Notes under the pieces: model-generated | Database searches by the model: none | What the model was told of the DNA's origin: nothing | Seen by the model: the letters and a program-made list of their open reading frames with translations, nothing else | Translations under genes and position numbers: made by a program | Shown: one piece after another, positions 22,472 to 25,491 of the stretch | Layout: every line of letters begins with the position of its first letter | Numbering within the stretch: position 1 is the stretch's first letter | DNA from: Haloimpatiens lingqiaonensis | GTDB lineage: Bacteria; Bacillota; Clostridia; Clostridiales; Clostridiaceae | NCBI RefSeq assembly: GCF_901447495.1 | Contig: NZ_CABDWS010000031.1 | Span: forward strand, 1 to 35,803 | Direction of reading: 5' to 3' | DNA length: 35,803 bases

Positions 22472-24598
22472 ATGAATTTATTTCAAACTATATTTACAGG
22501 CTCAAATCAAGCTTTAGAAGCAGCTAAAGGCCTAGTTGCTCAAGCTATAAGTGAAAAAGGTAAAGATTGTAAAGTTGCTTTTCCTGACACTGCTTATGCA
22601 CTTCCAATAATTTTTGCAGCTACAGGAAAGAAAATAACTACTCTTGAAGAACTAGAAGGAGCTTTAGCTGTAGTAGAAAGCTTAATAGTTCAAGAAGAAA
22701 GATTAGAAAAGGCTTTAAATGCAGGACTTGCTACTGCAGTAGCAGCAGAAATAATTGAAGCTGCTAAATATGTATTAAGTGACACACCATACACAGAACC
22801 TTGTATAGGCTTTGTACCAGACCCAGTTATCCGTTCATTAGGAGTTCCACTAGTTACTGGCGATATCCCTGGAATAGCAGTTGTTTTAGGAGAATGTCCA
22901 GATAGTGAAACCGCAGCAAAAGTTATAAAAGATTACCAATCAAAAGGACTTCTTACTTTCTTAGTAGGAAAGGTAATTGACCAAGCTATAGAAGCTAATG
23001 TAAAAATGGGTCTAGACCTAAGAGTTATTCCTGTTGGATATGATGTAACATCAGTAATTCATGTTGTATCAGTAGCTATAAGAGCAGGATTTATATTTGG
23101 TGCACTTGAAGGCGGTAAATTCGGTGATTTCTTAGAGTACACAGACAAGAGAATTCTTGCTTTTGTAAATGCCTTTGGACCACTTAGTGAATTAGTAGTT
23201 TCTGCAGGAGCAGGTGCTATAGCACTTGGATTCCCAGTAATTACTGACCAAGATGTTCAAGAAGTTCCAACATTATTATTAACTCAAAAAGATTATGATA
23301 AAGTACCAAAAACTTCATTAGAAGCTAGACATATAAAAATAAAAATAACTGAAATTCCTATACCAGTAGCTTTTGCAGCAGCATTTGAAGGTGAAAGAAT
23401 AAGAAAGAATGATATGTTTGCTGAATTTGGTGGAGGAAAAACTGATGCTTGGGAACTAGTAATGCAAAGAGAACTTTCAGAAGTTGAAGATCATAAGATT
23501 ACATTAATAGGTCCAGATGTTGATACTATAACAGAAGCACCAGGAAGACTTCCATTAGGAGTATTCATAGAAGTTGCTGGAGCTAACATGCAAAAAGACT
23601 TTGAACCAGTTCTTGAAAGAAGACTTCACTATTTCTTAAACTATATAGAAGGTGTAATGCACGTTGGTCAAAGAAACTTAACTTGGGTTAGAATAGGTAA
23701 GGAAGCTTATGAAAAAGGCTTTAGATTAAACCACATAGGAGAAGTTATCTATGCTAAGATATTAGATGAATTCGGATCTGTTGTGGATAAATGTCAAGTT
23801 ACTATAGTAACTGATCCAGATAAATGTGGAGAATTAAGAGAAAAATATGCTATGCCAAGATACATGGAAAGAGATGAAAGATTAGAATCTCTAATAGACG
23901 AAAATGTAGATACTTTCTACACTTGTAACTTATGTCAATCTTTCGCTCCAGCTCACGTATGTGTTGTAACACCTGAAAGACTTGGACTTTGCGGAGCAGT
24001 TAGTTGGTTAGATGCTAAAGCTACACTAGAATTAAATCCAACAGGACCATGTCAAGCAATACCAAAAGAAGGAGTTATTGACGAAAACTTAGGTATTTGG
24101 CAAAAGGTAAATGAAGTTGTTGAGCAAATGTCTCAAGGTGCAGTAAGCCAAGTTACATTATACAGCTTACTTCAAGATCCAATGACATCTTGTGGATGTT
24201 TTGAATGTATCTGCGGTATAATGCCAGAGGCTAATGGTGTTGTAATAGTAAACAGAGAATATGGTTCAATTTCTCCTCTAGGAATGACTTTTGGAGAACT
24301 TGCATCTATGACAGGTGGTGGAGTCCAAACTCCAGGATTTATGGGACATGGAAGACCATTCATATCTTCAAAGAAATTCTTAAAAGCTGAAGGCGGAGTT
24401 TCAAGAATCGTTTGGATGCCAAAAGAATTAAAAGAATTTGTTAAAGAAAAATTAAATAAAACAGCTAAAGAATTATATGATATAGATAACTTTGCAGATA
24501 TGATTTGTGATGAAACTATATCTACAGATTCAGAAGGCGTATTAGCATTCTTAGAAGAAAAAGGTCATCCAGCATTAACTATGGATCCTATTATGTAA
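22472..24598 (+). CDS. acsB: acetyl-CoA synthase (CODH/ACS alpha subunit)
   Basis: Ni enzyme of 708 residues that condenses methyl, CO and CoA to acetyl-CoA. A-cluster ligands are complete: C485, C488, C497 and C507 for the Fe4S4 cubane, and C574-G-C576 for the distal Ni. Spacings (3, 9, 10, 67) equal those of the Moorella enzyme (506, 509, 518, 528, 595/597). The N-terminal domain, which contacts CODH, is present, so this is the bacterial rather than the short archaeal form. The start is ATG 22472, 16 bp after acsE, with AAAGGGGGTAAGG upstream. A 518-bp repeat-rich gap separates it from gcvH. Confidence 0.98.
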   Translation: MNLFQTIFTGSNQALEAAKGLVAQAISEKGKDCKVAFPDTAYALPIIFAATGKKITTLEELEGALAVVESLIVQEERLEKALNAGLATAVAAEIIEAAKYVLSDTPYTEPCIGFVPDPVIRSLGVPLVTGDIPGIAVVLGECPDSETAAKVIKDYQSKGLLTFLVGKVIDQAIEANVKMGLDLRVIPVGYDVTSVIHVVSVAIRAGFIFGALEGGKFGDFLEYTDKRILAFVNAFGPLSELVVSAGAGAIALGFPVITDQDVQEVPTLLLTQKDYDKVPKTSLEARHIKIKITEIPIPVAFAAAFEGERIRKNDMFAEFGGGKTDAWELVMQRELSEVEDHKITLIGPDVDTITEAPGRLPLGVFIEVAGANMQKDFEPVLERRLHYFLNYIEGVMHVGQRNLTWVRIGKEAYEKGFRLNHIGEVIYAKILDEFGSVVDKCQVTIVTDPDKCGELREKYAMPRYMERDERLESLIDENVDTFYTCNLCQSFAPAHVCVVTPERLGLCGAVSWLDAKATLELNPTGPCQAIPKEGVIDENLGIWQKVNEVVEQMSQGAVSQVTLYSLLQDPMTSCGCFECICGIMPEANGVVIVNREYGSISPLGMTFGELASMTGGGVQTPGFMGHGRPFISSKKFLKAEGGVSRIVWMPKELKEFVKEKLNKTAKELYDIDNFADMICDETISTDSEGVLAFLEEKGHPALTMDPIM

Positions 24599-24617
24599 TT
24601 AAGAATTAAGAATTAAT
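24597..24617. repeat. heptanucleotide tandem repeat (AATTAAG, three units)
   Basis: AATTAAG, AATTAAG and AATTAAT run in register, beginning inside the acsB stop codon and ending at the left flank of the 314-bp element. Similar 7-bp arrays occur at three other places in this window. Confidence 0.7.
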
Positions 24618-24680
24618 AATTCAACTTTCGCAGCTATAAAATAAAAATATAAAATTTGTAGATAAGTAATGGGTATTAGA

Positions 24681-24708
24681 TAAGAAGTAAGAAGTAAGAG
24701 TTAAGGAT
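24681..24708. repeat. degenerate heptanucleotide repeat (TAAGAAG, four units)
   Basis: TAAGAAG, TAAGAAG, TAAGAGT and TAAGGAT run in register. The first two units are complementary to TTCTTACTTCTTA near 24750-24762, so transcripts could also fold here. Confidence 0.6.
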
Positions 24709-24727
24709 AAAACTCTAGGAGTTTTTT
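24709..24727 (+). terminator. possible terminator downstream of acsB
   Basis: AAAACTC-TAG-GAGTTTT with a following TT gives a 7-bp stem, a 3-nt loop and a short U-tract. It could end the acs transcript, in which case gcvH would need its own promoter. Confidence 0.5.
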
Positions 24728-24787
24728 ATAATTAATCTATAAGTAATAATTCTTACTTCTTACCTTATATAGCGTAAAGCTTAAAGT

Positions 24788-24911
24788 TTATCCGATGACT
24801 ACCTGCCGTAACACTTCCACCTCTAACAAAGTGGGAGATAACGGCAGCTACGTCCCTGGATAACGATCTCTAACCTTCAGTTGGAGTGAAAACTCCATCT
24901 GAAGCTAAGAG
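24788..24911 (+). ncRNA. candidate structured RNA inside the acsB-gcvH element
   Basis: A compact, nested fold can be drawn by eye. P1: TTATCC (24788-24793) with GGATAA (24858-24863). P2 inside it: CTGCCGT (24803-24809) with ACGGCAG (24841-24847). P3: CTTCCAC (24814-24820) with GTGGGAG (24831-24837). A second arm has CTCT/AGAG (24868-24871 with 24908-24911), CTTCAG/CTGAAG (24875-24880 with 24899-24904), and TGGAGT/ACTCCA (24882-24887 with 24892-24897) capped by a GAAA tetraloop. The segment is clearly more GC-rich than its surroundings. The strand is assumed from the GAAA loop. The class is not recognised; a mobile-element guide-like (omega) RNA or a self-splicing remnant are candidates. Confidence 0.55.
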
Positions 24912-24928
24912 TTCTGTTTATATGCGAA

Positions 24929-25027
24929 AGTTGAGTTAATAACTATAGTTATTGTTTAAGATACTTGCATAATCTGTGCTATTACCACCTTCATCAGTTG
25001 AGTTAATAACTATAGTTATTGTTTAAG
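24929..25027. repeat. 67-bp-spaced tandem duplication carrying a 16-bp perfect palindrome
   Basis: A 32-bp sequence at 24929-24960 recurs exactly at 24996-25027. Each copy contains the palindrome AATAACTATAGTTATT. The first copy straddles the right end of the 314-bp element (it starts with the last bases AGTTGA), so the duplication includes a piece of the element end. Confidence 0.85.
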
Positions 25028-25030
25028 TTC

Positions 25031-25071
25031 AGTTATAGTGGGTTTAAATATAATTTAAATCCGCTATAACT
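25031..25071 (+). promoter_or_regulatory. long hairpin in the gcvH leader
   Basis: AGTTATAGTGGGTTTA (25031-25046) pairs over 16 positions, including two G-T pairs, with TAAATCCGCTATAACT (25056-25071). It ends 45 bp before the gcvH start. There is no U-tract, so it may be a protective 5' structure or a protein-binding site. Confidence 0.55.
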
Positions 25072-25116: not shown

Positions 25117-25491
25117 ATGAATCATCCAGAAAATTTATATTATAGTAAAGAACATACTTGGGCAAGAGTTGAGGGAGATACAGCTTATGTTGGAATAACT
25201 GATTTTGCTCAAAGTCAATTGGGAGAAATATTGTTTGTTGAAATGCCAGAAGTAGACGATGAAATAACTCAAGATGAAACTTTTGGAGTAGTTGAATCTT
25301 CTAAAAAGGCTTCAGATTTATTTGCTCCAATTTCAGGAACAGTGTTAGAAATAAATGAAAAGTTAGATGATGAACCAGAATATATAAATGAAGATGCATA
25401 TGATGCTTGGATTATAAAAGTTCAATTAAGTGATAAAGGTGAGCTAGATAATTTATTAAGCTCTGCTGATTACCAATCAAGTATAAAATAG
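25117..25491 (+). CDS. gcvH: glycine cleavage system H protein (lipoyl carrier)
   Basis: Small lipoyl-domain protein of 124 residues. The lipoylated lysine is Lys63 within VVESSKKAS, and the family signatures HTWARVEGD and GITDFAQSQLGE are intact. In glycine cleavage it shuttles aminomethyl groups between GcvP, GcvT and Lpd. Here it ends the Wood-Ljungdahl cluster, as in several clostridial acetogens, with lpdA eight genes upstream and no gcvP or gcvT in the window. Its ribosome site is AGGGAGG. A perfect-palindrome terminator follows at once. Confidence 0.95.
   Translation: MNHPENLYYSKEHTWARVEGDTAYVGITDFAQSQLGEILFVEMPEVDDEITQDETFGVVESSKKASDLFAPISGTVLEINEKLDDEPEYINEDAYDAWIIKVQLSDKGELDNLLSSADYQSSIK

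Follow-up and report, generated by a model that had tools for sequence, protein, structure and literature searches.

What is the 314-bp stretch at 24621–24934, bounded by inverted repeats and lying between acsB (22472–24598) and gcvH (25117–25491), with acsV downstream of gcvH, in the window analysed here (the whole stretch of DNA, 35,803 nucleotides)? A first-pass annotation had placed it correctly between these two genes and had seen no protein in it, which holds, since no open reading frame of at least 80 amino acids overlaps it; it had read the whole as a single MITE with a built-in structured RNA. The GC-richer, non-coding folded part that it described is real and folds far better than shuffled sequence, but the single element gives way: the stretch is two mobile repeats, the inner one sitting inside the outer. 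We put at about 75% the probability that it is a nested pair, in which a MITE between acsB and gcvH contains a non-autonomous transposon of the single-strand (HUH/Y1) type to which IS200/IS605 elements, PATEs and REPs belong. Its location between these two genes is probably incidental.

The outer element has 13-bp inverted ends and a perfect 7-bp flanking TTAATAA. These are the two features of a DDE-type MITE, and together they mark a MITE that has transposed and duplicated 7 bp of its target. The arms at 24613–24632 and 24923–24942 are 90% complementary over 20 nt. The 12-bp inverted ends first described at 24621–24934 are thus real, but the true span is 24620–24935, one base more on each side; the element measures 316 bp with the inner insert and about 186 bp without it. 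Its features are:

24613–24619, no strand: left target-site duplication TTAATAA of the outer MITE, identical to 24936–24942.
24620–24935, no strand: outer AT-rich MITE, recognised by its inverted ends, its target-site duplication and two relatives that lack the core (L217 and L218, both from the sister genome G002).
24620–24632, plus strand: left terminal inverted repeat TTCAACTTTCGCA, 13 bp, from the inverted-repeat and target-duplication analysis.
24923–24935, minus strand: right terminal inverted repeat TGCGAAAGTTGAG, 13 bp, from the same analysis.
24936–24942, no strand: right target-site duplication TTAATAA, identical to 24613–24619.
24929–25027, plus strand: local duplication, an exact 32-nt repeat (24929–24960 and 24996–25027) that includes the right end of the MITE.

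Both the palindrome AATAACTATAGTTATT and the right end of the outer MITE lie within this 32-nt direct repeat, which is probably a local 67-bp duplication that postdates the MITE insertion. In G002 the outer AT-rich MITE is a family of its own (L218, L217, L221, L224 and others), with internal TAAGAAGTAAG repeats and variable length.

The two parts are separated by their distribution. A DNA search with the window region in its own genome (3.29 Mb, 184 contigs) found at least 42 places at 87–100% identity, the window copy included, with the best 40 of 401 candidates scored; the mobility suspected at first reading is borne out. Most of these matches span just 24787–24922 or so, and few other places show any match to the AT-rich left part. 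Flanks of most copies of this inner part, hereafter the core, are unrelated, and the printed copies nearly all begin with TTTAT and finish with TGTTTAT. Conversely, the outer MITE occurs in G002 without the core (L217 and L218): L218 has ACTTTATGTGGGAAAGTTGAG at the point where the window has AAGTTTAT, then the core, then ATGCGAAAGTTGAG, and TTTAT is present at the insertion point of this core-free relative. Three loci of the own genome (L002, L010 and L015) seem to have the core at the same place in the outer MITE, with flanks compared by eye and the left-part match computed for L002 only; either this site has been hit repeatedly or the composite sometimes moves. That the core is simply an internal part of one composite MITE is hardly credible: L001, L002, L010 and L015 carry it at what by eye is the same place, and such a unit may sometimes move, but the independent copies of both parts, with core-free outer MITEs and unrelated flanks around most cores, contradict it. 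We rejected the single MITE with a built-in RNA because the outer element is found core-free and the core mostly elsewhere.

Among 41 distinct own-genome copies of the inner element examined, all 41 have TTTA at the left end, while at the right end 40 have TTTAT and one has TCTAT; in 32 of the 41 an A follows the right pentamer. Copies that depart from full TTTAT ends include L002, with TTTAC on its left side, and L022, whose second copy has TCTAT on its right side. From these near-constant ends we define the element as the TTTAT at 24787–24791 plus the 130 nt that follow, up to 24921. Tandem core copies have one TTTAT common to both neighbours. The alignment contains no terminal inverted repeats, and the core has no coding capacity. 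Its features are:

24787–24791, plus strand: target pentamer TTTAT, the putative equivalent of the left cleavage site; TTTA in 41/41 copies, a single pentamer in empty sites.
24792–24921, plus strand: inner 130-nt hairpin element (core), probably non-autonomous; at least 42 places by DNA search, at least 150 model matches, 69/146 genomes of the family.
24788–24863, plus strand: hairpin 1, with outer stem TTATCC:GGATAA and a tip like the left-end hairpin of IS605, from covariation and tip match.
24868–24911, plus strand: hairpin 2, the right-end hairpin, from covariation.
24917–24921, plus strand: right terminal pentamer TTTAT (TTGAT in the type-B subtype); TTTAT in 40/41 own-genome copies.

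Empty sites, for which a search had been suggested at the outset, were found. In the acsB–gcvH interval of the sister genome G002 the whole composite is absent, in an intergenic region too diverged for a base-exact junction, and elsewhere single-pentamer empty sites were recovered. At a locus beside a Y1 transposase gene, G000 has the filled arrangement TTTAT-131 nt-TTTAT and G002 a single TTTAT (ATAAA on the printed strand). Comparing joined flanks with all loci collected gave 63 junction-spanning rows, many of them self or tandem matches; the informative rows, which lie in repeated DNA and come from C. ragsdalei, C. magnum, G002 and the own genome, have a single TTTAT-like pentamer, often with 1–2 base changes.

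Such sites, together with TTTAT on both sides of most copies, would also be produced by an ordinary DDE-type MITE with a preference for TTTAT and a 5-bp target duplication, and in the TTTAT-ended subtype taken alone a duplication and a fixed right end are indistinguishable. The type-B subtype bears on the choice between the two: with ends located by pattern, 13 of its 14 copies have TTTAT at the left and TTGAT at the right, which argues that the right pentamer is part of the element, as in IS200/IS605, and is not simply a target duplication. Among the loci compared, none was an empty site of type B. With the lack of terminal inverted repeats in the core and the TTTAT held in common by tandem copies, these unequal ends make the DDE-type account very improbable; single-pentamer empty sites and unequal pentamers are what is expected of PATE-type elements, which carry a fixed pentamer and make no target duplication.

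Secondary structure is strong and conserved. The 24621–24934 sequence has a folding energy of –103.5 kcal/mol, compared with a mean of –59.2 for shuffled sequences (z –8.0; 0/100 shuffles as good), and the fold of its minus strand is as strong (–103.3; z –9.0). Across 43 sequences, a hand-drawn two-hairpin model has 90.4% of cells paired and double changes at 24 of 39 pairs; 0/500 shuffles reach any of five measures, and sliding one partner lowers pairing to 36–49%. These 43 are taken from 45 representatives (L119:429-538 and L085:2040-2227 omitted) that were drawn from 85 distinct sequences, L100, L130 and L144 being dropped and eight more places having no recognisable right end. In a second alignment of 56 distinct rows, itself fitted to the model, 94.7% of cells are paired and 26/39 pairs have double changes. 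The covariation that the first-pass annotation proposed as a check on its stems is thus present, and, with pairing and double changes above those of shuffles, the hairpins look selected. Its GAAA-capped arm is found in the window copy and does not extend to the family: the loop is TAAAAA in 37 of the 41 distinct own-genome copies, TTAAAA in three and TGAAAA in one, the window copy itself. Two covarying hairpins and no inverted ends correspond to the near-terminal palindromes of PATE-type elements.

Does this structure act as RNA or as DNA? In RNA stems G-U is tolerated and A-C is not, whereas for a DNA structure either strand counts. On the hand-drawn structure, on which the covariation also rests, the core has 72 G-U against 58 A-C cells, or 45 against 55 when one fixed U-G pair is set aside; on plus-strand structures from RNAalifold it has 12 against 16, compared with 48 against 6 in a control of 30 SAM riboswitches from 16 core-bearing genomes, whose structure was likewise taken from RNAalifold. 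G-U and A-C are therefore about equally tolerated in the core, unlike in the riboswitch control, which points to single-stranded DNA. The mismatch test favours DNA without proving it.

The rival of a structured non-coding RNA (an omega-type guide, a regulatory RNA or a transcript end) that has multiplied in the genome under selection on the RNA draws on the strong fold and the covariation, on the orientation of the core (along co-oriented neighbour genes 31 times, against them 12 times, by simple ORF calls) and on two counts in which G-U exceeds A-C. One of these, 50 against 24 in the 38 best-scoring copies, owes part of its excess to the fixed U-G pair and to a model that favours G-U; the other, 42 against 23 in the minus-strand RNAalifold structure, resembles a riboswitch on its non-native strand (65 against 28 for SAM). 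Against this rival also stand the near-equal plus-strand mismatches, the equal folding of both strands, the absence of a U-run 3' of hairpin 2, and the databases. The comparison with Rfam that had been called for was run and no family matches the core: the whole window gave no match at the gathering threshold, and below it the 24560–25060 interval gave chance-level matches only, the best (E 0.035) to the flanking palindrome.

Of the classes that had been raised for the RNA, the intron remnant and the guide RNA find no support. The intron remnant has no match to group I or group II intron models. An omega or guide RNA would overlap the 3' end of tnpB and the right end of an insertion sequence, and there is no tnpB at the window copy; a right end common to the core and TnpB loci was not found in the 30 loci compared of 59 listed, which yielded only inserted core copies or fragments (L179, and probably L171 and L152), matches to the tip of the left hairpin and chance-level matches. 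A search for TnpB with PF07282 at E 1e-5 finds no match in 6 of 16 core-bearing genomes, and this, with the missing Rfam match and the nearly strand-symmetric mismatches, speaks against the guide as well. In its appearance the core is closer to folded DNA than to an RNA with a function; we hold the RNA reading to be unlikely and give it little weight. The 31:12 orientation bias may reflect insertion into the lagging-strand template, or selection, and carries no decisive weight.

Which enzyme could move such an element? The tip of hairpin 1 resembles the left ends of IS605 elements of the same clostridia. Among 25 left ends, taken at loci located by TnpA protein similarity (30 returned; L464–L468 dropped as partial or distant), 18 match the tip at 18 or more of 22 positions, compared with 10 of 3000 background windows; the seven that fall below include L450, from a short contig, whose left end probably escaped the search. 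An earlier set of IS605 elements, chosen after blastn had shown the likeness, gave 18–21 of 22 in 8/8 left ends; five of the 25 elements are also in this set of eight, and the background included IS605 loci for the eight and not for the 25. An IS200 element of G002 scores 14 at both ends. Hairpin 2 has no match at the right ends of IS605 in the loci compared, so the relation to IS605 ends concerns the left tip only. The hairpin tip speaks for IS605 TnpA as a partner, but the presence of this enzyme does not track the core, which occurs in 17/29 genomes with TnpA and 52/117 without, no significant association (p 0.21, phylogeny ignored). G002 has no TnpA match at E 1e-20 though near-identical core copies are present, and among 33 genomes examined the core-bearing G006, G009 and G016 have no Y1_Tnp match at E 1e-5.

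Alternatively, the core could be a REP/BIME-like element whose specific transposase is the REP-associated tyrosine transposase (RAYT) that these genomes encode, a 196-aa protein that matches the NCBIfam model REP_Tyr_transpos at E 3e-20 and 72.5 bits, below the cut-off of 80. This partner was attractive from the cores lying beside its gene in G000, G003 and later G102, and the core does occur more often with it (25/39 genomes with a REP-type transposase, 44/107 without; Fisher p 0.016, phylogeny ignored). The proximity weakens on counting: a core lies within 1.5 kb of the gene in only 3/50 RAYT loci, where repeats flanking the gene would be expected, and element density, at least 150 copies in the own genome, may explain even these. 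The core beside the gene in G000 is an insertion that is absent in G002, and G016, G006 and G009 have no close RAYT match, nor was any found in Pectinatus. REP hairpins measure 20–40 nt and have a GTAG/CGTC-type foot; the core measures 130 nt, has the consensus ends TTTATCCGATG..CTGTTTAT and, by eye, no GT[AG]G foot tetranucleotide. We therefore regard this specific pairing as doubtful. The REP-type transposase is interrupted by a stop codon in C. ljungdahlii and C. ragsdalei; in G102 (L277, 1900–2980) its frame runs into a comM-like Mg-chelatase gene with two core copies, and in G000 (L113) it also adjoins a comM-like gene, these names being given by eye.

The family is large and widespread. 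Covariance-model matches at E 0.01, with at most 22 per genome listed, place the core in 69 of 146 Clostridiaceae genomes and 24 of 46 genera. With the best 150 candidates scored in each of eight genomes, so that all figures are lower bounds, there are at least 150 matches in the own genome (3.3 Mb), in C. magnum and in C. ragsdalei, at least 117 in C. ljungdahlii, 53 in C. mobile, 44 in C. carboxidivorans, 38 in G002 and 23 in Pectinatus haikarae. Pectinatus lies outside the Clostridiaceae, as does a 4-kb contig of an Acholeplasmataceae MAG, possibly misbinned, that also carries the core (loci L341 and L329). The region gave no blastn match in plasmid and phage collections, and one exact 28-base pattern none in viral contigs.

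Median nearest-neighbour identity is 0.993 in the own genome (n=45), which suggests recent spread, 0.985 in G002 (n=9), 0.940 in C. ljungdahlii (n=6), 0.926 in G016 (n=12), 0.924 in C. ragsdalei (n=9) and 0.850 in G032 (n=7); in 7 of 13 genome sets the pattern used picked up one copy at most. By this measure the own genome and G002 have young copies, and G016, a genome with no Y1 transposase by PF01797, has older ones. Simple ORF calls place the core between genes in 65 of 68 rows, two of the three in-ORF rows being one place counted twice and the copies inside the comM-like gene of G102 being absent from the count. At L215 and L216 of G002, core copies stand in the same flanking sequence at no fewer than two places near TnpB genes, where the core seems to have been carried along when an insertion element was copied.

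The closest published description that we found is that of the palindrome-associated transposable elements (PATEs) of Haloquadratum walsbyi. As far as the consulted part of that description goes, PATEs and the core alike lack terminal inverted repeats and a target duplication, have near-terminal palindromes, which in PATEs are related to IS605 ends, are too short to encode a transposase, and occur in many copies, often nested with other repeats (PMC3119063). PATEs are archaeal, whereas the core is bacterial (Clostridium); the right end and target pentamer differ, and in the core only the left hairpin tip is like resident IS605 ends, with no source insertion sequence found. The IS200/IS605 elements of the same clostridia have in common with the core a pentamer target, subterminal hairpins and, in the 18 of 25 left ends, a similar tip (CTCCCATC..GGTGGGAG), but the core is gene-free and adjoins TTTAT, whereas IS605 left ends mostly adjoin TTTAA (by eye), and no common right end was found. 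REP, BIME and REPIN elements, in the parts consulted of a source that also sets out the Y1 subclasses and REP types, resemble the core in their paired hairpins, high copy number, mostly intergenic placement and RAYT genes in some hosts (PMC6006769); the core differs from them in its length, in the lack of a visible GT[AG]G foot and in the 47/50 RAYT loci with no core within 1.5 kb. Group A IStrons, according to the sections consulted, insert after TTGAT, ATTAT or TTTAT, have an IS200/IS605-type IS component and end in TCAG (PMC4227781); the TTTAT target is alike, but the core has neither an intron match nor open reading frames. In the part consulted of a paper on C. autoethanogenum repeats no such element is named (PMC4022347), the terms sought do not occur in PMC3733652, and the open-access literature yielded no description of the clostridial core repeat. 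The core is a real family of a known kind, undescribed as far as the literature was searched.

The TTTAT boundaries, single-pentamer empty sites, TTTAT-sharing tandems, covarying hairpins, lack of coding capacity and high copy number together argue for a non-autonomous element of the HUH/Y1 type. At this locus, an AT-rich MITE would have landed between acsB and gcvH, duplicating TTAATAA, and the 130-nt two-hairpin element would then have entered a TTTAT near the right end of the MITE, a site also present in the core-free relative. The hairpins would form on single-stranded DNA, for example on the lagging-strand template, and be bound by a Y1 transposase acting in trans. The internal GGATAA may pair with TTTATCC as a guide, and a cut after TTTAT at both ends would free a single-stranded form able to insert 3' of another TTTAT. 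Target-guide pairing is known from IS608-type systems, and by analogy the outer stem TTATCC:GGATAA could be such a pairing. More tentatively, the core might be a hairpin parasite of IS605-type transposases that has kept the left-end tip to which resident IS605 TnpA would bind and, with its own guide GGATAA, has shifted the target of that single-strand transposase from TTTAA to TTTAT, reaching more than 100 copies in acetogenic clostridia; we hold this as a possible reading only.

More than 100 copies are thus present in acetogens, C. ljungdahlii and C. ragsdalei among them, of a repeat that no Rfam family matched and of which no published description was found in the open-access literature. 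Since its hairpins covary, the core could be mistaken for a conserved structured RNA, and comparing G-U with A-C mismatches is a cheap way of telling whether structure is kept at the level of DNA or of RNA. Should the core be moved by a resident transposase with a different guide, the family would exemplify, in nature, single-strand transposition that has been retargeted.
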